Shown here piece after piece: positions 4,013-26,445 of a stretch of 26,896 bases of DNA. Origin of the DNA: a virus; the IMG/VR virus record IMGVR_UViG_3300031885_000092, positions 1 through 26,896 of that record. One strand, given 5' to 3'. The notes under the pieces were generated by a model. It saw only the letters and a list, made by a program, of their open reading frames with translations, ran no database searches and was not told the DNA's origin. Numbering within the stretch: the stretch's first letter is position 1; every line of letters starts with the position of its first letter. Position numbers and translations under genes: made by a program.

Positions 4013-4810
4013 TTATAATTCTCCAACAAAGTTCGCTACTGCTGGCATATCACCTTTGAAATGATATGTACCGATATGGCTAGTACGCATCCAAGGACAT
4101 AACCAAATTTCACCACCAGCTTTTCTCCAGTATTGACAGAACATATAATCTTCCGATAAATATCTTTCTGATTCTGGATCAATCACAGTGTCGAAATAAG
4201 CATGGATATATCGTGTCCCATCAAAATTAGCTTGACCAACATGATCTGGTTTGTATTTGTATTCAGGATATGCCGCTTCCCATTTAGGAAATACTTCACG
4301 TTTGATCAACATAAATCCAGTACCAATCTCTAATACTTCTAATGGTTCGGTGACATTGAATTGTGCAGTCCCTTTTACTGGATTGAACACATAATCACCA
4401 ACAACATTTTCTAGTTGACCAGCATCAATATCAGGATTCTTTGTTAGCGCAGTCTTAACAGATTTCCATTTGATAGCTTTCTTTGGGTATGGTGCACCAA
4501 TCACATCTTTATCAAGGGCCAATAATGTAATAACATCTTTAGGATCGAAGTGGATATCAGCGTCCAAGAACAATAGATGAGTACAATCTGATCTGTGTAT
4601 AAACTCATCGACCAGATAGTTTCTAGCGCGAGTGATTAATGATTCGTTGAATAGGAATGAAAATTTAATTTCTATACCATATTGTGAGCACAAACCTTGT
4701 AAATCTAAACAGGACTTCATGTATAGACCGTGATTAAGTCCTCCGTACATTGGTGTGCAGACGAATAACGATTTCTTTTGTAGTTCTTCTTTACTAATTG
4801 ATATTTCCAT
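4013..4810 (-). CDS. GT-A-fold glycosyltransferase-like protein
   Basis: 265 aa. ATG 4810 has AAGGA a few nt upstream and overlaps the end of the HNH gene by 17 nt. LFVCTPMYGGLNHGLYMKS near the N-terminus, RARNYLVDEF, and above all THLLFLDADIHFDP (a DxD-type nucleotide-sugar/metal motif) indicate a family-2/GT-A glycosyltransferase. Further segments GAPYPKKAIKW and GTGFMLIKREVF are common in phage members of this group. The target (DNA base, host surface polysaccharide or virion) cannot be told. It sits among replication genes rather than structural ones, which leaves DNA or nucleotide modification open. Confidence 0.75.
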   Translation of the reverse strand: MEISISKEELQKKSLFVCTPMYGGLNHGLYMKSCLDLQGLCSQYGIEIKFSFLFNESLITRARNYLVDEFIHRSDCTHLLFLDADIHFDPKDVITLLALDKDVIGAPYPKKAIKWKSVKTALTKNPDIDAGQLENVVGDYVFNPVKGTAQFNVTEPLEVLEIGTGFMLIKREVFPKWEAAYPEYKYKPDHVGQANFDGTRYIHAYFDTVIDPESERYLSEDYMFCQYWRKAGGEIWLCPWMRTSHIGTYHFKGDMPAVANFVGEL

Positions 4811-5258
4811 TTTTCTTCCTTTTTATATTGTTTTCGATTAGTTTCTTTCTGCGATGTTCTGCTTCTATTGGATGAGTTTCCCACCAGTCTTTACCAGATT
4901 CACTTTGTTTCTTCTTCGTTTCTTCTGTATATACCATACCTTTTGTTGGGCTGACTCTTCCTCGAAGAGCTTTACTTATTTTATCCCTAACCTCTGGTCT
5001 TTTTGATGGATTTTTGTCACCAGCAAATTCCCCAGATCTAGTTTTATTGGATTCTATTATTGTCAGTCTAATAATATCTTCTTTACCAATTCTACCAGAC
5101 AACCCTTTCCACGCAACAAGATCTTGCCATCTCCCAAATTCATCATATAATTTTTTGTGTGCCTCAGCATGTTCTTCTACCGTTAGGTGTACAATATTTG
5201 ATGAGTCGTCAGACCAGCCCATGTGTTTTGGTATTATGTGATGTTTATGTCTTAACAT
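4794..5258 (-). CDS. free-standing HNH homing endonuclease with NUMOD3-like repeats
   Basis: 154 aa. KHHIIPKHMGW, SSNIVHLTVEEHAEAHK form the HNH signature (His-His, Asn, His) in residues 5-36. The C-terminal half carries NUMOD3-like segments (GDKNPSKRPEVRDKISKAL, KGMVYTEETKKKQSESGK) that bind DNA in phage endonucleases. It sits between the deformylase-like gene and the glycosyltransferase, interrupting what would otherwise be a tight operon. A perfect consensus promoter (5272-5300) ends only about 14 nt before its ATG, so its own mRNA would be nearly leaderless and I see no good ribosome binding site; the promoter may mainly serve the genes downstream. Confidence 0.88.
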   Translation of the reverse strand: MLRHKHHIIPKHMGWSDDSSNIVHLTVEEHAEAHKKLYDEFGRWQDLVAWKGLSGRIGKEDIIRLTIIESNKTRSGEFAGDKNPSKRPEVRDKISKALRGRVSPTKGMVYTEETKKKQSESGKDWWETHPIEAEHRRKKLIENNIKRKKNGNIN

Positions 5259-5874: not shown

Positions 5875-7845
5875 CTATAGTTTAGCGATTCGTGAGAAAT
5901 TCCCACTCTTTTCAAATTTTATTACTGACCTAAATCGATCAAATAAATGATCGCCGCGATGACTAATCACGAATAAGTTTGTGTCGTCATCAAATTCTTC
6001 GAATATTTTAAATAGATTATCTATAGATGCATCATCCATAGAAGAGTCTAGTATCTCATCCATTATCAATATGTTTGTATTGGTTGAGTTCTTCATCTTA
6101 GCAACTTGTCGCCATGTTAGCAATAAGCTTAGGTCTATCTTAGTTTTCTCACCTTCAGAGAAGTTAGTATACTTGAAATCGTCTCTATGTCTAGATTTAA
6201 TAGTCTCATCAAAGTTTTCGTCTATATTGAAGTTGACGAAGAAATCCATTGCAGATAGGTACTTGTTGATTAGCTTGTTCATTACTGGTAGATATTGCTT
6301 TACTATTCTAGTTTTGATGCCGGTATCTTTTAGTAGATTAGATGCATATTCATAGTATTGCTTTTCATTAGAGAGTCTTTCTTGTTCAGCCATGATTGTT
6401 TGTAGGTGCTCTACCATTGCAATAAGCGCACCATTATCGTTTTCAATCGTATCTTTACGCACTGATAGCAAGTCTATCTCTCTGTTTATCTTAGAGATGT
6501 ACTGATTCATTGCTGATATCGTTGAGTTGTTGCCAACTATCTCGTTGTTATGCTGTGTTATCTGTTTATTAATTCCTTGTATCTCAGTTAGTCTGGTGTT
6601 CAATCGTTTTATTTCGGTAGATATCTCATCAACACCTTTGTTTATTTGGTCTCGTTTAGTTGTCTTTTCTGCAACTTGAGCAGTTTTAAATCCAACATCT
6701 AGTACTTGTCTGCATGTTGGACAGTCATCATTCTGGTGATAAAACGCGATATCTTTGTTTATAGAGCTAATGCTATACGCTAATTTAGCCTCCATTTGAA
6801 TCATCTTCCTAGACTTTGTTTCTACAGAAAGTTTATCATCTATTTTTTTCTGTAGAGATTCTATATGTTTTTGTATTAATACACCATCAGCAAGTAGACG
6901 TTCATTCTGTAATTGAGAAGTTTCAATTTCTCCCAGCTTTCTAGCAACTTCTTCATCATTATGCTTTTTATGTTCATCTATATTCTTCTTCTGTAGTTTT
7001 ATCTTTTCTGCGGTAATATTCAATTCATACTTGTTGTTGGATGAATCGTCTTTAATAGTAGACAGCTTTTCCTTGACCAGAGAATTCATTGACGAGAATA
7101 TCTGAATGTCCAACAAATCTTCAATGATAGCTCGTCTATCACCCGCAGAAAGTTGCATGAATGGGACGAACGACGCAGAACCTAGTATAACCACTTGTGT
7201 GAATGATTTGAAGTTCAGTTTCAGAATAACTTTCTCAAGGTAGTCCTGATAATCCTTAGCCTTGGCATCTTGATTTATCAATACGCTACCACAATATATT
7301 TCGAATACATTAGGTTTTATTCCACGTATTACCTTATATTCTTTAGTTCCTATGGTGAATTCTACCTCAACCACACCATCAGATGTATTGATACTGTTTA
7401 GTAGATTCCCCTTATTGATCTTTCGGAATGGTTTACCGAACAACACAAAACACAACGCATCAAGCATGGTCGAGTTATGTGACAAAATATCGCCGGTATA
7501 AAATCTGTGGTGTTTTGAGTCTATAGACAAATCATACATATTTGAAGTTGTCCCCAATTCAACTACGGAAATTACTAGTTCGGATCCAATCTTTGTTAAT
7601 ATCTTAGTTATATTTGGTATACAATCTTTAACATACATTTCATTATATTGATCATCAAAAATTATATGGGTGTCTGCACACTTCAACATAAGCCCAGACT
7701 CTGTTGTTATTTCCCACTCTACATATTCTATGGTTTGGTGTATGTGAGTAATAGGTTTCCATCCAGTGTCAGTTTCGATGCTCCAATCAGATACACCAAA
7801 ACTATTGGTAAATTTATGATGTGTTATGTCAGATAATTGGTTCAT
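5875..7845 (-). CDS. 46: C-terminal half of split-intein gp46: IntC plus Rad50-like ATPase
   Basis: 656 aa. Residues 1-124 are the C-terminal part of a split intein; Ser125 starts the C-extein, which continues Walker A as STMLDALCFVLFGKP. The rest is gp46, the SMC/Rad50-type ATPase that works with gp47 nuclease in recombination and DNA end processing: long coiled coils (about 265-370 and 385-500), a zinc hook CPTC (375-378), signature FSEGEKTKIDLSLLL (562-576), Walker B ILIMDEILD (592-600) and switch His in ISHRGDH. Joined to the upstream half it gives a 572-aa gp46, close to T4 (560 aa). The ATG overlaps the end of the endonuclease gene by 17 nt; GGAG lies about 10 nt upstream. Confidence 0.93.
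   Translation of the reverse strand: MNQLSDITHHKFTNSFGVSDWSIETDTGWKPITHIHQTIEYVEWEITTESGLMLKCADTHIIFDDQYNEMYVKDCIPNITKILTKIGSELVISVVELGTTSNMYDLSIDSKHHRFYTGDILSHNSTMLDALCFVLFGKPFRKINKGNLLNSINTSDGVVEVEFTIGTKEYKVIRGIKPNVFEIYCGSVLINQDAKAKDYQDYLEKVILKLNFKSFTQVVILGSASFVPFMQLSAGDRRAIIEDLLDIQIFSSMNSLVKEKLSTIKDDSSNNKYELNITAEKIKLQKKNIDEHKKHNDEEVARKLGEIETSQLQNERLLADGVLIQKHIESLQKKIDDKLSVETKSRKMIQMEAKLAYSISSINKDIAFYHQNDDCPTCRQVLDVGFKTAQVAEKTTKRDQINKGVDEISTEIKRLNTRLTEIQGINKQITQHNNEIVGNNSTISAMNQYISKINREIDLLSVRKDTIENDNGALIAMVEHLQTIMAEQERLSNEKQYYEYASNLLKDTGIKTRIVKQYLPVMNKLINKYLSAMDFFVNFNIDENFDETIKSRHRDDFKYTNFSEGEKTKIDLSLLLTWRQVAKMKNSTNTNILIMDEILDSSMDDASIDNLFKIFEEFDDDTNLFVISHRGDHLFDRFRSVIKFEKSGNFSRIAKL
7474..7845 (-). 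other. IntC of the gp46 split intein (124 aa)
   Basis: Block B-like WEITTESGLMLKCADTHIIF (residues 44-63; His60 is the block B His) and blocks F/G ending YDLSIDSKHHRFYTGDILSHN. The final His-Asn is followed by Ser+1. Because block B is in the C-terminal piece, the split lies between blocks A and B, the atypical position. Confidence 0.9.
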
Positions 7846-8881
7846 TTATAAAGCACTCCGTCCATCCTTCAAATTTCTCTTTTGGTGTGTATTTGTCGCC
7901 TATATTATTTTTAATAATATCTTGCTCCATTAAAAAACATTTATGTATAGTATCATAGACCGTATTAATAATATCATAACTGTATCCGCCTATTACATGT
8001 CCTCGGCATCTCTTTCTTATAGTTTTAGTGGTTATACCTATCTTATAGAATACTTCGTCATCGTTATATACCTTAAGTAAATAAAGGATACCTGGAATAT
8101 TTAATTCTTCGTCCCATAGTGTTCTATAGTTAACCGTAGGAGCCTTTCTCCTGCATATATCTTCCTTTTCATCGTCAGATTTTGCATTTAATGTGGTTTG
8201 CCAGCTATCTTGTCTGGCATCCCACAATTCTTGTCCCTTCACTGTGCCATATTTATCTATACAGATACCCAAAGAAAATGTATTTTGTGCGTCAGACACC
8301 ATACTGATTGATTCTTCTTTGGTAAAGCCTCTTAATATATAATATTCTTTACATCTTCTAGAGCTTGCTTTATGCATTTCAATGTCTCTATCTGCCGCCG
8401 CTTTATTACCGCTAATGTTATTACTGTGTTTTTTTGTCGCCGCCAATTCTATAGACTCTTGTTCGGAGTATCCTCGTTCCATCCAATATTCCTTTCGTAT
8501 AGGTCTTTGTGTGTTTCTTTTATAATCCGCTTCGGGTTCTGTATATAAAGCTCCAGTTAAAGGATTTATTTTACATATCCAAAACTCGATCGAAAATGGT
8601 GATGGTGTTTTTTTTATTGGAAAATTAGCTTTTGATTTGTATTTAGCTTCACTATCGCTCCATCCACGACATTGCCAGTAACCAATGGTGTGCGCTCCCT
8701 GTTCGAGAAATACATATTCTGAACATATCAATTGTTTAGATTTAACCACATTATTAGATGTTTCTGGATGATCTAATAGAAATTGATTTAGTTCCTTTCT
8801 AAAATCAGGATGAAGGTTTTTTATTTTGTCGTCTAAGCACTCGTTAATCTTTTCCTGTATTGTTCTGTTTCTCTTGTTCAT
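7829..8881 (-). CDS. GIY-YIG-type homing endonuclease between the gp46 intein halves
   Basis: 350 aa. The C-terminal domain (about 263-345) reads GILYLLKVYNDDEVFYKIGI with Arg residues following, a Glu at 319 and a final KFEGWTECF, as in the GIY-YIG/T5orf172-like nuclease group. The N-terminal two thirds carries three related segments of the form Y-W/Y-x-x-R-G-(W/Y/F)-(S/T)-x-x-E near residues 68, 132 and 180, probably DNA-binding repeats. The ATG at 8881 overlaps the end of the IntN frame by 38 nt and has AGGA about 7 nt upstream; a late promoter lies at 8945-8952. It presumably promotes spread of the split intein into intein-free gene 46; that is inferred from position. Confidence 0.85.
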   Translation of the reverse strand: MNKRNRTIQEKINECLDDKIKNLHPDFRKELNQFLLDHPETSNNVVKSKQLICSEYVFLEQGAHTIGYWQCRGWSDSEAKYKSKANFPIKKTPSPFSIEFWICKINPLTGALYTEPEADYKRNTQRPIRKEYWMERGYSEQESIELAATKKHSNNISGNKAAADRDIEMHKASSRRCKEYYILRGFTKEESISMVSDAQNTFSLGICIDKYGTVKGQELWDARQDSWQTTLNAKSDDEKEDICRRKAPTVNYRTLWDEELNIPGILYLLKVYNDDEVFYKIGITTKTIRKRCRGHVIGGYSYDIINTVYDTIHKCFLMEQDIIKNNIGDKYTPKEKFEGWTECFINEPII

Positions 8882-9080
8882 AAAATTTTCCTATAGTGGT
8901 TTCTATTATTTCACCAGTCATATTATTCTGTATCTTTATAGGAGTATTTATACAAACACATTTGCCAGCACCATTAGATCCAATTATCAGTGTGCTCTTG
9001 GACGAGTTCAGTTTTATTTCGGTAAACACATTACCAGTACTTAATATGTTTTTGTATCTCAACAATTTAAAAATTATCAT
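8844..9080 (-). CDS. 46: N-terminal half of split-intein gp46
   Basis: 78 aa. Residues 1-40 are the gp46 N-terminus ending in the first seven residues of Walker A (GSNGAGK); Cys41 begins the intein. The intein fragment of 38 aa (CVCINTPIKIQ then EIIETTIGKFYEQ) contains only block A. Protein splicing in trans with the product of 5875-7845 is needed to make a whole P-loop, so active gp46 depends on splicing. The ATG overlaps the gp47 stop (ATGA), as expected for the 47-46 pair. Confidence 0.9.
   Translation of the reverse strand: MIIFKLLRYKNILSTGNVFTEIKLNSSKSTLIIGSNGAGKCVCINTPIKIQNNMTGEIIETTIGKFYEQEKQNNTGKD
8847..8960 (-). other. IntN of the gp46 split intein (38 aa)
   Basis: Starts with Cys (codon 8960-8958) immediately after the Walker A Lys. 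Block A only; no block B Thr-x-x-His. Length is near that of atypically split IntN fragments (25-40 aa) rather than the usual about 100 aa. Confidence 0.88.
8945..8952 (-). promoter_or_regulatory. T4-type late promoter inside the gp46 IntN
   Basis: Exact TATAAATA on the minus strand within the codons for Cys-Ile-Asn-Thr of IntN. RNA starting here would lack the IntN start but carry the endonuclease gene (ATG at 8881, about 57 nt later) and the gp46 C-half. Confidence 0.55.
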
Positions 9081-18577: not shown

Positions 18578-18781
18578 TTATTTCTCCGTTATTAATCTAT
18601 TTATAAACTTGTTGAATACAGCTTCCAACCCATATTTCATACGCGCATTTCTAAATGCTACACAATTACTATTTTGTTTCTTATGATTTTTGCATCTCTT
18701 TTCATAATCACATGTTTGTCCTATATAGCACTTTCCGGATGGGCTAGTGTGTTTATAAATCAGGTATGTTTTCCCGATCAT
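18578..18781 (-). pseudogene. truncated GIY-YIG homing endonuclease fragment
   Basis: 67 aa. It begins normally with TYLIYKHTSPSGKCYIGQT, then CDYEKRCKNHKK and FRNARMKYGLEAVF, the first half of a GIY-YIG nuclease domain. The sequence then stops: the catalytic Glu region and all DNA-binding parts are absent. The last codons (KFINRL) encode the TATAAATA late promoter of gene 67 and the final GGAGAAATAA is its ribosome binding site, so a deletion appears to have joined the fragment to the gene 67 leader. The ATG overlaps the gp20 stop (ATGA). Not expected to cut DNA. Confidence 0.8.
18598..18605 (-). promoter_or_regulatory. T4-type late promoter for gene 67
   Basis: Exact TATAAATA on the minus strand, 21 nt before the gene 67 ATG, inside the GIY-YIG fragment. 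Confidence 0.75.
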
Positions 18782-20403
18782 AATATGCGCTTTATAGTGT
18801 CAAACGTACTATATTCTTCTTGTTGCTGCGATTCAATTGGTGGATCTAATTGATTCATCATTTGCTGCTGTGTAACCGCATTAGACACCTCAACAGGAAC
18901 ATCAAATCCTTCTTTCTTCTCGGATTCTATTTCTGCTTTCATATCCTCTATCTGAATATCTGTAAGTCTAAGAACCTTTCTGAGTATCCAAGATTTAGAA
19001 TAGTATGTTCCAGTATAAGGATCAACTTGACTCAATAACGCCAATCTTTCTTTCATCAATTCAGCATCTTTCATTTCAGCAAAGTTATTATCTCTGATGA
19101 AATCGTAGTATATATGTTCTTTAAAGTCTTCCCACTCTTCGGCTGTGCATATGCCTTTCAACACACACTGTGCACGTAAAGCTTGGTTAAACATGTCAGA
19201 GAATTTGTTTCTAAGTCTATCAATAAACTTAGCGAATTTCAGCTCATCTCTTGTTACTTCTGATACACGACCCAGTGCAAAACCTTGGTTTGGTTCTAAA
19301 CGTGAAACAGGAACACTTAATGCTTTGTATAGTTTTCTCTCGAAGTATTTAACATCTTCAAGTTCACCCAAGTTTTGTCCACCTGGTAGTGTAGTAATCT
19401 CGGTACCTTTACCACCTTCTCTACGTGGTAACCAGAAATCTTCCATCATTGACATGAATTTACGATCATCTCGTACTTCACCTGTCGCGGCATCATACAC
19501 AAGTTTATTCTTGTACTTTGCCATAATGTCACGTAGGTACTGTTCAGCTTTTAGCTTAGGTAGATTACCCACATCGATATAGAAAATTCTACGTTCTGGT
19601 GCTCTAGAAATACGATAGATTACCGTAGCATCTTCGATCATTCTCAATTGGTTTAGAGGTTTAATTGCTTTGTGTAGATACGACAACACAACTGAACGTC
19701 TAGAATCCATTAGTCCAGATACAACTGAAATAATAGAATCTGTTGTAATTCTAACACCGGCAGGACCGAAATTAGATGAACCGCCACCAGCAACTTTATC
19801 ATTGAATATGTAATACTCATTGATAACATTCATTACATCAACGCCAGTACGATCATCCTTCTTCTTTTTAATTTCTCGTACTTTCCTTAGCTTTCTTGGA
19901 TCGATATAACGTAATGCTTTAATACCTTCTGTTGGATTTTCTTTGTCTATGATAATGTGATAGTACATTTTCCCATCAACATAGTATCTACGAAAGATAT
20001 CCTGTGCCATATTCTTGTAGTTCAGTAGTTTTAATACTGTAGCAAATTCTTCCCGAATTGCTTTCTTAATCTTATCTGGCTGTTTTAAATCGTCCAGTAC
20101 GATATCTGTAATTCTTCCATCGTCATCTATACTAATTGCTTCATTGACGATATCATCTAGTGCTGATTCAATTTCAGGTTGCATAGCCATTTCACGATAA
20201 CGAGAAATAAGCTCTACCTCATTTTTGGCAGTACCATCCATATCAACATACACACCCATGTGTGCGTTTGATGTGATCGTAATGGCCCCATCTTCATTGG
20301 TTGGCGGACTAAAGCTTGGTTGTGCCTTTTGGTCTTCCTCATGCTTTTCACGAGAAAACGTGAACCCAAATAAACTAAATTTTGTCGCACCTTGTGTTGA
20401 CAT
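18778..20403 (-). CDS. 20: portal vertex protein gp20
   Basis: 541 aa (T4 524 aa). The dodecameric portal is the DNA entry point and the site of terminase docking. Conserved blocks include LISRYREMAMQPEIESALDD, RRYYVDGKMYYHIIID, LRYIDPRKLRKVREIKK, YLHKAIKPLNQLRMIEDA, VIYRISRAPERRIFYIDVG, FWLPRREGGKGTEITTLPGG and VSRLEPNQGFALGR. All match the standard gp20 order. The ATG overlaps the stop of the GIY-YIG gene (TAATG). Confidence 0.97.
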   Translation of the reverse strand: MSTQGATKFSLFGFTFSREKHEEDQKAQPSFSPPTNEDGAITITSNAHMGVYVDMDGTAKNEVELISRYREMAMQPEIESALDDIVNEAISIDDDGRITDIVLDDLKQPDKIKKAIREEFATVLKLLNYKNMAQDIFRRYYVDGKMYYHIIIDKENPTEGIKALRYIDPRKLRKVREIKKKKDDRTGVDVMNVINEYYIFNDKVAGGGSSNFGPAGVRITTDSIISVVSGLMDSRRSVVLSYLHKAIKPLNQLRMIEDATVIYRISRAPERRIFYIDVGNLPKLKAEQYLRDIMAKYKNKLVYDAATGEVRDDRKFMSMMEDFWLPRREGGKGTEITTLPGGQNLGELEDVKYFERKLYKALSVPVSRLEPNQGFALGRVSEVTRDELKFAKFIDRLRNKFSDMFNQALRAQCVLKGICTAEEWEDFKEHIYYDFIRDNNFAEMKDAELMKERLALLSQVDPYTGTYYSKSWILRKVLRLTDIQIEDMKAEIESEKKEGFDVPVEVSNAVTQQQMMNQLDPPIESQQQEEYSTFDTIKRIL

Positions 20404-21020
20404 TATATATTTCCTTTCATTTTACAGTTGTCGAAATGCCATCTTTTAGCATTGCCTCTATTGGTACTAATGTTACAGTGTGGACATTCTATTAATATCT
20501 TCGCAGCATCACTTATATTTAGTAATGTTTTTTCTGTGTGATAATCTGTAATGCCATTGTTCCAAGAAGATGTTCCCTTTCTGTTTTTCCCCATCAATAT
20601 CTTTGATTCGTCAGAATGTGTTTTTCCAAGATTTTTACCCATAGAAGATGCTCTTATCTTTTCTATACTTTCTCTAGTGTGGGTCGGATAATAACCAAAT
20701 GTACCCTCTCCACCCAACGTCATATTATATCCATTAGAATTTTTGGACTTGATATATGAATTGTTCTCAACAATAAAGTAATTTTCCATTATATTTTTAC
20801 AATAGTTTAGTTCTAGTGATTGATATAAAATAGACCAATAAAAGCTGCTCCACCCATACTTTCTTATAGACCTATGAAAATATGTTTTATATCCTGGTTG
20901 ACCAACACAATTGGCTTCTATCTTATGCCTACCTTTTCTTTTTTCATAATCCTTAGCAAAACCAATATAGCATTTACCAGTGATTTTGTTTGTTGCTTTG
21001 TATATAGTATATATAATCAT
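20403..21020 (-). CDS. GIY-YIG homing endonuclease (Seg-like)
   Basis: 205 aa. YTIYKATNKITGKCYIGFA with following KDYEKRKGRHK is the GIY-YIG catalytic start; RKYGWSSFYWSIL and the Glu of NIMENYFI complete the nuclease domain by about residue 85. NUMOD3-like repeats (TRESIEKIRASSMGKNLG, HSDESKILMGKNRKG) and a C-terminal zinc-like CPHCNISTNRGNAKRWHFDN then C give DNA binding. GGAG precedes the ATG by about 8 nt. It sits between 19 and 20 immediately after a strong terminator, without a recognisable promoter of its own. Confidence 0.92.
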   Translation of the reverse strand: MIIYTIYKATNKITGKCYIGFAKDYEKRKGRHKIEANCVGQPGYKTYFHRSIRKYGWSSFYWSILYQSLELNYCKNIMENYFIVENNSYIKSKNSNGYNMTLGGEGTFGYYPTHTRESIEKIRASSMGKNLGKTHSDESKILMGKNRKGTSSWNNGITDYHTEKTLLNISDAAKILIECPHCNISTNRGNAKRWHFDNCKMKGNI

Positions 21021-23509: not shown

Positions 23510-24982
23510 TCAATTTCTCATCAACTCACGAAAAAATCCAGCATATACTTCACCACTATCAGCTTTCTCCCATACATCACCATCTATCACATCAAACTCA
23601 TTAGCGAATCCGTCTTCAATGATAGGTGCAGGGAGGGATTCATCATCAACTTGGTTCATGCTTTCAAGCTGAATCTGTTTCCTTATATCATGTGCAACAA
23701 TATCACGAAAATATTTCTGAGTAGTAACCCATGCAAATATCACAAGGGTCATCGCTAAGTCATCATGTGCATCAGATTCTGCGGCAAATGAAGTTTTATT
23801 AGCTACAAACGTGGTTAATTCAGAAACAGTTTCGAAGTCACATACTTCTAGTTTATTACCTTCTATTAGAGTTTTAAGATTAGAACAGCCAATCCTCTTG
23901 ACAGCGGGAGACATTTTAAGTCCCATCTGTACTCCTCTACCGAATCCACCACATAATTGCTGTGGTTTCTTATTACCGGTCATTATCTTGAATAGATTTT
24001 CGTACTCTAAATCTTGGTGAATAATGTCAGCAACTTGTGGATTATTATTTATCTCTACCAATATATAGGCATCATTATACAAACGTGCAGCATTATAAAT
24101 TATGGTTGGAAATAGTATTGGTGATATATTTGCATTGCAGTACGTTGCTACTTGCTTATACGGTGTTGATGATATATCAAATACAGAAAACGATGATGCA
24201 TCCATGTTCCTGCCCTCCGACACGTCTACAGAGATACAATACAGGTGGTCCTTTATATCATTATCATCGCCCTTTATTGGATACTCATAAATCTTTGTAC
24301 CGTCATGCTGTGTAATTGGGTCTGAAAATGTCAGTTGCTGTAGCTTTGTGCCAGAAATAAGGGTATTGGTACTACCAAGGAATGTCGTATTAAATTCTTG
24401 CTCGAAGTTATGGTCGCCGATATTCTTTCTGGTTTCCTCTTCCCACGCATCATCTCTTCCAGGAACTTGCGACCAGTGAACTTCGTATGGTGTGTAACTG
24501 TTCCGTTTATTTATCGCATCTGTCCAGATTTTATAGAACAGATTCATGCCATTTGGTGTTGATACTATTATTATCTTGGTCTTGGTACCCGCAGTAATAA
24601 CCGGGTAAACTGATTGCATAAACTCGTTAGCAATACTAGATGGTACGAATGCGAACTCATCAAGAAACACACAATTTTTTATAAGCGTTTGATTTGCAAA
24701 GAAATTATTTGTGGTCTCTACGTTAACTACGTCATATACATATATTTTTTTGTCTGATTTGGTTTTGTAAATAACCTCTTTTGTACATGTTGGTGAATAT
24801 ACTATATCACCAACATGTATTTCTGATGATGCTGTCCACTCACCGTTGCATAGTATTTTGTGGTCTTCCGTTACAGTTAGATAAGAACCATCATCAAAAA
24901 ACAAATCGATTATTTTATTGGACTCCGATCTTGCTATGAAATCAAAGTTTCTATATACGTTACCCTCCGAAAGAACCCTCAC
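23510..24982 (-). CDS. 17: C-terminal half of split-intein large terminase gp17: IntC plus Walker B and nuclease
   Basis: 490 aa. Residues 1-103 are an IntC; Cys104 starts the C-extein at Walker B (VFLDEFAFV). The ATPase coupling motif VSTPNG follows, then the packaging nuclease with acidic sites in ISVDVSEGRNMD, LVEINNN and AHDDLAMTL. Joined to the upstream 169 residues it gives a 556-aa terminase (T4 610 aa). The start is a GTG overlapping the upstream stop (GTGA), with AGGGG about 6 nt before it; alternatively it may be reached by -1 frameshifting. gp17 with gp16 packages DNA into the prohead through gp20. Confidence 0.92.
   Translation of the reverse strand: MRVLSEGNVYRNFDFIARSESNKIIDLFFDDGSYLTVTEDHKILCNGEWTASSEIHVGDIVYSPTCTKEVIYKTKSDKKIYVYDVVNVETTNNFFANQTLIKNCVFLDEFAFVPSSIANEFMQSVYPVITAGTKTKIIIVSTPNGMNLFYKIWTDAINKRNSYTPYEVHWSQVPGRDDAWEEETRKNIGDHNFEQEFNTTFLGSTNTLISGTKLQQLTFSDPITQHDGTKIYEYPIKGDDNDIKDHLYCISVDVSEGRNMDASSFSVFDISSTPYKQVATYCNANISPILFPTIIYNAARLYNDAYILVEINNNPQVADIIHQDLEYENLFKIMTGNKKPQQLCGGFGRGVQMGLKMSPAVKRIGCSNLKTLIEGNKLEVCDFETVSELTTFVANKTSFAAESDAHDDLAMTLVIFAWVTTQKYFRDIVAHDIRKQIQLESMNQVDDESLPAPIIEDGFANEFDVIDGDVWEKADSGEVYAGFFRELMRN
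24674..24982 (-). other. IntC of the gp17 split intein (103 aa)
   Basis: VRVLSEGNVYRNFDF at the start, block B LTVTEDHKIL with Thr38-x-x-His41, then GEWTASSEIHVGDIVYS, and blocks F/G as YVYDVVNVETTNNFFANQ ending Lys-Asn before Cys+1. The usual penultimate His is Lys. Size and layout resemble the 104-aa IntC of the AceL-TerL intein. Confidence 0.9.
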
Positions 24983-26445
24983 CTCTTTCCCCTACCAATA
25001 AGAAACCCCTCCGACTGACAATTTTCAGGAAAACATTTTATTTCAGTTGTGTTTGGATTGTGATACCATTTATTACCTTTTATAGATTTACCGGCAGAGC
25101 TATTGCCGAACACTTCATTATCTTTTAACTCATAATCTACAGGAACTCTAATTAATTCATTGCTCTTAGTATTAGTAACATATCTTTGTCCCTTGCCCAA
25201 CCATTCAGTACCCTTTTCAGATATAGTTTGGTGTTTGGCTATAGATTGGTTTCTCTTGGTAACATCGGTACGTTTCATTCCGGTATGTTTTTCTGCGGTC
25301 TTTCTAATCTTTTCTGGATTTTTATTTATTTTATCCATGTGTTCACTAGATTTTTTGGTCCCTGCTAGACTGTCACTTACTCTCTTATTTCTACCAGAAA
25401 TTTCCCAATGATTTTTGATTTCTTCCTTATTTTCTGTCCAATATTTAATCATCTTTTGTGAATTTCTTTCACGTTCTTCCGGTGAAATTTCTCGTTCCTT
25501 TTGTGCTTGTGAATATAACAATCTAAGATTTGAATACTCTTTTGATGACATCTTGATACCTTTTCTGGCATTAGACATCATATAAAGTGCATACACCATC
25601 TTGGCTTTATATTTACCTTGATATATTCTAATCAATAACTTATGACATATGAAGTGTTCTTTAAGTGTCAAATACACCATATTACCATGCGTATTATCTC
25701 CGGATATGGGTTTTGGTATTATGTGGTGATATTCATATGTTAACAACGGATCACACTTCCTGAGTTTGGCACAATCTATTATATCGAAATACCACTTTTT
25801 ATATTTGTTATTAATCATATCACTATCAGATTCAATATTACTGATGTTCTCCTGATTGTTATACATAGACTCAATGGTATTCTCGTGTTTGTTATCATGA
25901 TCATCTATATATTGTACCACAGATTCTCCAGAAACACAATTGTATGAACCAGAACGTGCTGCTGAAGATGATGTCGATGACGCAACTATCTTAGAACCAT
26001 TTTCCAATTCAATGAAACTTTTATTCCATGTAATAATGCCTTGTTGTAACCACAACGGGAGGTTTTCATATGCTAGTTGTAGTCGCGCTAGAATATCTCT
26101 AGCGGTTTGTCCTTTATTTGCTAGTATCGCAACCGAATATGAGTCCTGGAACAACACACACCACAAGAGATATGCGACAGATACTGTCGTTTTGCCCTGT
26201 TGTCTTCCTATTTTAGAAATTATAAATCTATTGTCATGAAAAGTTTTTATCATGTCTTTCTGGAACGGGTACATGTCAAATGGCACTAGCCCATGATCTA
26301 GGGTGATGATTTTCATGTATTGCGAGAAGTACACTGGATCCTTAGAGCACCGAACATATTCTTCGACTTGTTCCTGTGTATAATCTACCGATACACCGAC
26401 TTTTTTAAGATTCCCATTATCACGATATGCTGTAGAAACTGCCAT
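24979..26445 (-). CDS. 17: N-terminal half of gp17 fused to IntN and an HNH endonuclease
   Basis: 488 aa. Residues 1-169 are the terminase N-extein with Walker A GRQQGKTT (80-87) and SSTSSSAARSGSYN at the junction. Cys170 begins IntN (CVSGESVVQY). The frame continues without a stop into an HNH endonuclease: LTYEYHHIIPKPISGDN then MVYLTLKEHFICHK (about 236-269), basic NUMOD-like repeats (GTKKSSEHMDKINKN, EKHTGMKRTDVTKRN) and a C-terminal KWYHNPNTTEIKCFP-type tail. Splicing would release HNH attached to IntN. The ORF ends at TGA 24981-24979. It overlaps gp16 by one base. The terminase and HNH identities are firm; whether the fusion is cleaved further is unknown. Confidence 0.92.
   Translation of the reverse strand: MAVSTAYRDNGNLKKVGVSVDYTQEQVEEYVRCSKDPVYFSQYMKIITLDHGLVPFDMYPFQKDMIKTFHDNRFIISKIGRQQGKTTVSVAYLLWCVLFQDSYSVAILANKGQTARDILARLQLAYENLPLWLQQGIITWNKSFIELENGSKIVASSTSSSAARSGSYNCVSGESVVQYIDDHDNKHENTIESMYNNQENISNIESDSDMINNKYKKWYFDIIDCAKLRKCDPLLTYEYHHIIPKPISGDNTHGNMVYLTLKEHFICHKLLIRIYQGKYKAKMVYALYMMSNARKGIKMSSKEYSNLRLLYSQAQKEREISPEERERNSQKMIKYWTENKEEIKNHWEISGRNKRVSDSLAGTKKSSEHMDKINKNPEKIRKTAEKHTGMKRTDVTKRNQSIAKHQTISEKGTEWLGKGQRYVTNTKSNELIRVPVDYELKDNEVFGNSSAGKSIKGNKWYHNPNTTEIKCFPENCQSEGFLIGRGKR
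24985..24991 (-). other. candidate -1 ribosomal frameshift site
   Basis: Minus-strand G GGA AAG in the frame of the upstream ORF (codons AGG GGA AAG AGG TGA) is a canonical X-XXY-YYZ heptamer, the same heptamer used in the lambda tail G/GT frameshift. A -1 slip here would continue as Lys-Glu-Val-Arg-Val-Leu into the IntC frame without a stop. Confidence 0.45.
25846..25938 (-). other. IntN of the gp17 split intein (about 31 aa)
   Basis: Starts with Cys170 (codon 25938-25936) after Asn169. Only block A is present; the right edge with the HNH domain is approximate (near residue 200). Fits atypical IntN length. Confidence 0.85.

Follow-up and report, generated by a model that had tools for sequence, protein, structure and literature searches.

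The large terminase gene (terL, gp17) of an uncultured T4-like phage is split at its Walker B motif, with an endonuclease coding region at the break. This raises the question of how one terminase could still be made from the two parts, and of how the endonuclease is related to the interruption. The sequence is IMG/VR record IMGVR_UViG_3300031885_000092, which was analysed in its entirety (26,896 bp, here called the window) and which carries portal, major head, tail and terminase genes. TerL is encoded by two minus-strand open reading frames (ORFs). ORF1 (26445..24979, 488 aa) contains the N-terminal part of TerL (TerL-N), the N-terminal part of an intein (IntN) and an HNH endonuclease in one reading frame; ORF2 (24982..23510, 490 aa, GTG start) contains a 103-aa C-terminal intein part (IntC) followed by C104 VFLDEF (Walker B) and the rest of TerL (TerL-C). 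The endonuclease coding region is located between IntN and IntC and is not a separate ORF; IntC is placed in the -1 frame behind the stop codon of ORF1, and IntN, endonuclease and IntC do not form one ORF in the window. Sequence comparison makes it very probable that the interruption at Walker B is an atypically split, mobile intein of class 1, and that its homing endonuclease is translated as an extension of the IntN C-terminus.

The first-pass annotation of the window had described this layout correctly. It had placed the end of the TerL-N sequence at SGSYN, which ends at residue 169, and C170 follows as the first residue of IntN (CVSGESVVQYIDDHDNKHENTIESMYNN; core of approximately 28-30 aa, to ..ESMYNN, with a short linker after it). 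It had read the same frame into an HNH endonuclease, and the phrog_655 'homing endonuclease' profile matched residues 206-422 of ORF1 (Table 1). The next ORF opens, as it had proposed, with IntC (residues 1-103) before Cys+1 at Walker B, and the span that it gave for the intein (24674-25938) runs exactly from Cys1 to the last intein Asn. The HNH protein contains, in this order, the HNH motif (HHIIP..N..HFICH), the KINKNPEKIRKTAEKHTGMKR block and a C-terminal YHNP tail; alignments showed no variation among relatives at the catalytic H, N and H positions.

The insertion site was defined by comparing the junction with intein-free relatives, as had been proposed. L004, L005, L006 and most of the other loci are continuous at the insertion residue, and L004 and L005 read SGSYN-CVFLDEF without interruption; an intein-free terminase was the rule among the first 158 loci, with a handful of exceptions (tblastn gap measurement). 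L005 is closely similar to the window in both TerL parts (Table 1) and its TerL is a continuous 556-aa ORF, equal to the spliced length that had been predicted for the window (169 + 387 = 556 aa). The class-1 residues are present: C170, T38/H41 (TxxH), V82-Y83-D84, and N103 followed by C104 as Cys+1. The window IntC alone was below the cut-off of Pfam Intein_splicing, which was matched by all 44 aligned IntC. The best match of the IntC profile among solved inteins was CatC (6dsl, E 1.6e-17), an engineered TerL consensus; 6dsl was also the best Foldseek match of the AlphaFold2 model of the window IntC (mean pLDDT 92.5), and the top matches were solved inteins. Sequence and model together indicate that the TerL interruption is a class-1 split intein with a HINT fold and an atypical split of approximately 30/103 aa. 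The architecture is beyond chance, as it is the same in the relative L001 and is present, with a shortened HNH, in L002 and L003 from other metagenomes.

AceL-TerL and GOS-TerL are atypically split TerL inteins with a short IntN (25-37 aa) and a long IntC (104-115 aa) (PMC11766414). The parallel to AceL-TerL drawn in the first-pass annotation stood for the host gene and for the short-IntN split, which the window shares with AceL/GOS-TerL and with the consensus Cat (6dsl), CatC being the nearest solved IntC. It did not stand for the site: the Cat/AceL/GOS-TerL-type insertion is at QEFE, followed by CEFLGS (the CatC chain has CE at +1/+2), whereas the window element is inserted before CVFLDEF at Walker B, and CatC matched L166, which is at the Cat-type site, with 72.9 bits vs. 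25.4 bits for the window. The window also differs from these inteins in having an HNH in frame on IntN. Fractured genes such as AceL NrdHF, with an intervening GIY-YIG endonuclease gene (PMC7891396), are similar in that the host gene is in two parts, each with a half-intein, with an endonuclease coding region between them; in the fractured genes described there the endonuclease is an intervening gene, while in the window it is the C-terminal part of the IntN precursor. The HNH domain is related to those of the T4 Mob type (MobE and relatives; phrog_655), with approximately 30% identity in isolate phages, but the Mob genes are free-standing and the window HNH is fused to IntN.

The intein and the terminase around it have very different divergences from L001. 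DNA identity between the window and L001 was 95.4% in IntN, 94.3% in HNH and 94.2% in IntC (dS 0.12-0.25), compared to 84.6% in TerL-N (dS 1.1) and 75.4% in TerL-C (dS saturated). An intein that is 94-95% identical inside diverged terminases shows that IntN, HNH and IntC spread together, the element having moved horizontally as a whole unit. The dN/dS values between the window and L001 (0.19 in HNH and 0.07 in IntC) show that the HNH has been under purifying selection. In L002 and L003, which share this intein, the HNH has lost an internal segment without a change of frame, and the GTGA overlap of the two ORFs is retained.

Most likely, judging from this overlap, translation of the two ORFs is coupled at GTGA, and is followed by trans-splicing and by release of IntN-HNH. 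ORF1 would be translated into TerL-N-IntN-HNH up to its TGA, and the ribosomes would then reinitiate at the overlapping GTG, the product of ORF2 being IntC-TerL-C. The two intein parts (approximately 30 + 103 aa) would then assemble into the HINT fold, with Cys1 and Cys+1 driving a trans-splicing reaction that would yield the 556-aa TerL and an IntN-HNH by-product of approximately 319 aa. The latter could cleave terL alleles that lack the intein and so spread the complete element to them; the identity contrast between the window and L001 is the footprint of a transfer. The GTGA overlap is conserved in L001 and L002, and ATGA or TAATG is present in several other loci with fused endonucleases. 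Nearly all of the fused loci have a start-stop overlap or a close restart, in frame relations that differ between loci, which is explained by restart and not by frameshifting.

Some observations weigh against a mobile split intein of this kind. The penultimate intein residue is Lys (KN), where His is usual in block G. The dN/dS figures come from a single sequence pair. An internal ATG (Met of SDMINN) is a possible HNH start, and splicing therefore need not be the sole source of free HNH. In addition, the element is known solely from metagenomes, and its IntC had no match in 50,697 phage records.

Next, we analysed the elements at the Walker B site in a profile-based census from 299 loci, with near-identical IntC removed. 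The census comprised 56 elements. The most abundant form (25) was a continuous intein overlapped by an HNH gene in the +1 frame, followed by in-frame IntN-GIY-YIG fusions (11), in-frame IntN-HNH fusions (6: the window, L001, L002, L233, L248 and L250), continuous inteins without endonuclease (6), other split forms (5) and elements with a separate GIY-YIG gene (2). The remaining element (L253, 796-2361) is a continuous intein whose frame includes a truncated GIY-YIG domain, and is probably a fused split form restored to a single ORF through deletion. None of the loci surveyed had, at the Walker B site, a continuous intein whose in-frame endonuclease was intact. The GIY-YIG assignment is supported by TIGR01453, which matched L164 and L222 below the curated cut-off of the model. 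A KINxNPEKIRKTAEKHxGMKRS block is common to the fused HNH and fused GIY-YIG types, which suggests that different catalytic heads were swapped onto one tail, probably a DNA-binding one. The in-frame fusion of IntN with an endonuclease is a recurrent and mobile arrangement that involves two nuclease families.

The overlapping +1-frame HNH of the continuous relatives is genuinely coding. In the 26 loci of this type, some of which are closely related, the intein frame is free of stop codons throughout the HNH, where approximately 15 would be expected in each (synonymous shuffling of the HNH codons, 2,000 shuffles per locus). Zero stops were reached by 0 of 2,000 shuffles at every locus, while stops in the third frame were as numerous as expected. 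In pairwise comparisons, the HNH reading was more conserved than the spacer reading (e.g. 82% vs. 60%). AlphaFold2 predicted the continuous intein of L007 with high confidence as a HINT domain formed by residues 1-31 and 257-369, the spacer being disordered. A hidden out-of-frame HNH insertion without splicing domain has been described in ShiLan (PMC11855218); L007, L163, L165 and others similarly have an uninterrupted host frame across an HNH gene that is read in a different frame, but in these relatives the overlapping HNH is enclosed by a complete HINT intein, and the window lacks the overlapping form. One terminase gene (L221:1764-4646) combines an overlapping +1-frame HNH at a Walker A intein (0 stops, 15.1 expected) with a fused in-frame GIY-YIG at Walker B.

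These data were used to weigh other explanations of the split. An interruption at the RNA level is conceivable, since phage terL introns with endonuclease genes nearby are known from ICP1 (PMC10448857). However, an Rfam search gave no intron above threshold, IntC is a HINT domain and the intein-free homologues run uninterrupted through the site; for the same reasons the inserted segments are not ordinary terminase domains, the case that the first-pass annotation had named as refuting the intein, and a group I or II intron or such a domain has a negligible probability. It is also very improbable that a continuous intein was broken by a recent frameshift or by an error of sequencing or assembly and is now a decaying pseudo-intein. 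A frameshift would likewise leave two ORFs that differ in frame and overlap by a few nucleotides, but the frames are identical in L001 and in L002/L003, the element shows purifying selection and recent transfer as a unit, and it belongs to a recurrent class that includes a second nuclease family. Moreover, the IntC frame contains 41 stops across the HNH (36.5 expected), indicating that it was not recently open. The window terL is not a broken gene. Somewhat less remote, though still improbable, is a programmed -1 frameshift at the heptamer G GGA AAG, which would join ORF1 to ORF2 and make limited amounts of a continuous, cis-splicing intein that contains the HNH in frame. This heptamer, also used by phage lambda G-GT, is within the only workable stretch, four codons between an upstream TAG in the ORF2 frame and the downstream TGA in ORF1, and L001 carries GGGAAAA. 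Nevertheless, it is absent in L002 and L233; in L248, L250, L164 and L251 the two parts share a frame and are separated by a stop, an arrangement in which a frameshift would not help; and ORF2 has its own start codon, and the heptamer may simply belong to the Shine-Dalgarno-like stretch in front of it.

The first-pass annotation had also suggested a possible intermediate between a continuous intein with an in-frame endonuclease and a true fractured gene, and this part of it is not supported by the sequences compared. The fusion is clade-specific, mobile and present with two nuclease families, which speaks against a step towards a fractured gene; the proposed starting form was not found intact at the Walker B site, where the endonuclease-bearing continuous relatives carry the +1-frame HNH instead. 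A different transitional route, in which a single indel where IntN meets the HNH turned a continuous intein with an overlapping HNH (L007-like) into the fused form, is unlikely but deserves more weight than the explanations above. The frame relation of HNH to IntC (+1) is equal in both types, the Met at the HNH start is kept in the window, and the IntC tree needs just one label change, although the root of this tree was not placed, with sites a and c as outgroup not falling on one side of a branch. By contrast, in a tree of HNH domains with free-standing ones as the root, all HNHs of the overlapping type group in one derived clade (support 98/97) and the fused types fall outside it, long branches leaving the root uncertain. 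The stop count given above also means that the window has no relic of overlapping coding. Tree and stop count together argue against an origin of the window element from the overlapping type and against its being a transitional step.

Table 1. Features of the two intein-split genes in the window.
Feature	Coordinates	Strand	Evidence
TerL (gp17) N-extein, residues 1-169, ending ..ARSGSYN	25939..26445	-	phrog_5989, phrog_2 terminase large subunit; 93.5% identical to L005
IntN from Cys170, block A CVSGESVVQYI..	25831..25938	-	aligns with block A of other Walker B-site inteins; 91.7% identical in L001
HNH homing endonuclease, 283 aa, in frame with IntN	24982..25830	-	phrog_655, E 5.6e-31; alignments; dN/dS vs. 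L001
GTGA overlap (ORF1 TGA stop / ORF2 GTG start)	24979..24982	-	sequence
AGGGGA, Shine-Dalgarno-like, just upstream of GTGA	24988-24993	-	sequence
G GGA AAG heptamer, phased for a -1 frameshift and one codon before the TGA	24985..24991	-	sequence
IntC, 103 aa: block B TEDH, block F VYD, block G ..LIKN	24674..24982	-	conserved blocks, profile matches, AlphaFold2 model
TerL C-extein, Cys+1 VFLDEF (Walker B) to end, 387 aa	23510..24673	-	Pfam Terminase_6N/6C; 95.6% identical to L005
gp46 IntN ORF	9080..8844	-	phrog_77 match up to 333
Separate T5orf172-type endonuclease ORF in gp46	8881..7829	-	
gp46 IntC ORF	7845..5875	-	phrog_77 match from 334

Further inteins and endonucleases were present in the window and its relatives. 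The SbcC-like gp46 gene of the window (5875-9080) is also intein-split, at Walker A and in the classical fractured form, and its IntC groups with the TerL Walker A inteins in the IntC tree. Homing-endonuclease-like ORFs are located at 4794-5258, 18578-18781 and 20403-21020 on the minus strand (one NUMOD3, two GIY-YIG), between structural and other genes. In L002 (1613-4630) and L003, TerL is encoded as three polypeptides, with an endonuclease-less split intein at Walker A in addition to the Walker B intein with the shortened HNH. Three TerL intein sites (Walker A, Walker B and CEFLGS) are occupied in L212 (1-3412) and L220 (2035-5792), and the L212 TerL appears, with L220 as a guide, to be made as four polypeptides. 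A strong hairpin (13-bp stem, -18.8 kcal/mol, z -5.6) lies within the IntC coding sequence of the window (24784-24819); it is largely kept in L001 and reduced in L002.

The literature search found no earlier in-frame endonuclease on an IntN precursor and no overlapping out-of-frame HNH inteins, the original fractured-gene paper being outside the search. Judging from the accessible literature, two features are new: an endonuclease that forms the C-terminal part of an IntN precursor, recurrent with two nuclease families, and, in the relatives, inteins with an overlapping out-of-frame HNH. With somewhat better than even confidence, we read the TerL inteins as one family that keeps the endonuclease and splicing frames apart in two ways: trans-splicing with IntN-HNH or IntN-GIY-YIG, where splicing would free the nuclease, and a continuous intein with an overlapping HNH, where the disordered spacer would be the out-of-frame reading of the HNH. 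To our knowledge, neither way has been described before. The fused form would be a third way for an intein to carry a homing enzyme, beside the in-frame domain of a continuous intein and the separate gene of a fractured gene. As fused, overlapping, separate and deleted forms occur at one site, how inteins become split may be testable there by comparison. Finally, split inteins with a short IntN are tools for protein ligation, and the fused elements, approximately 17 in number, are natural candidates in which a large domain at the IntN C-terminus is evidently tolerated.
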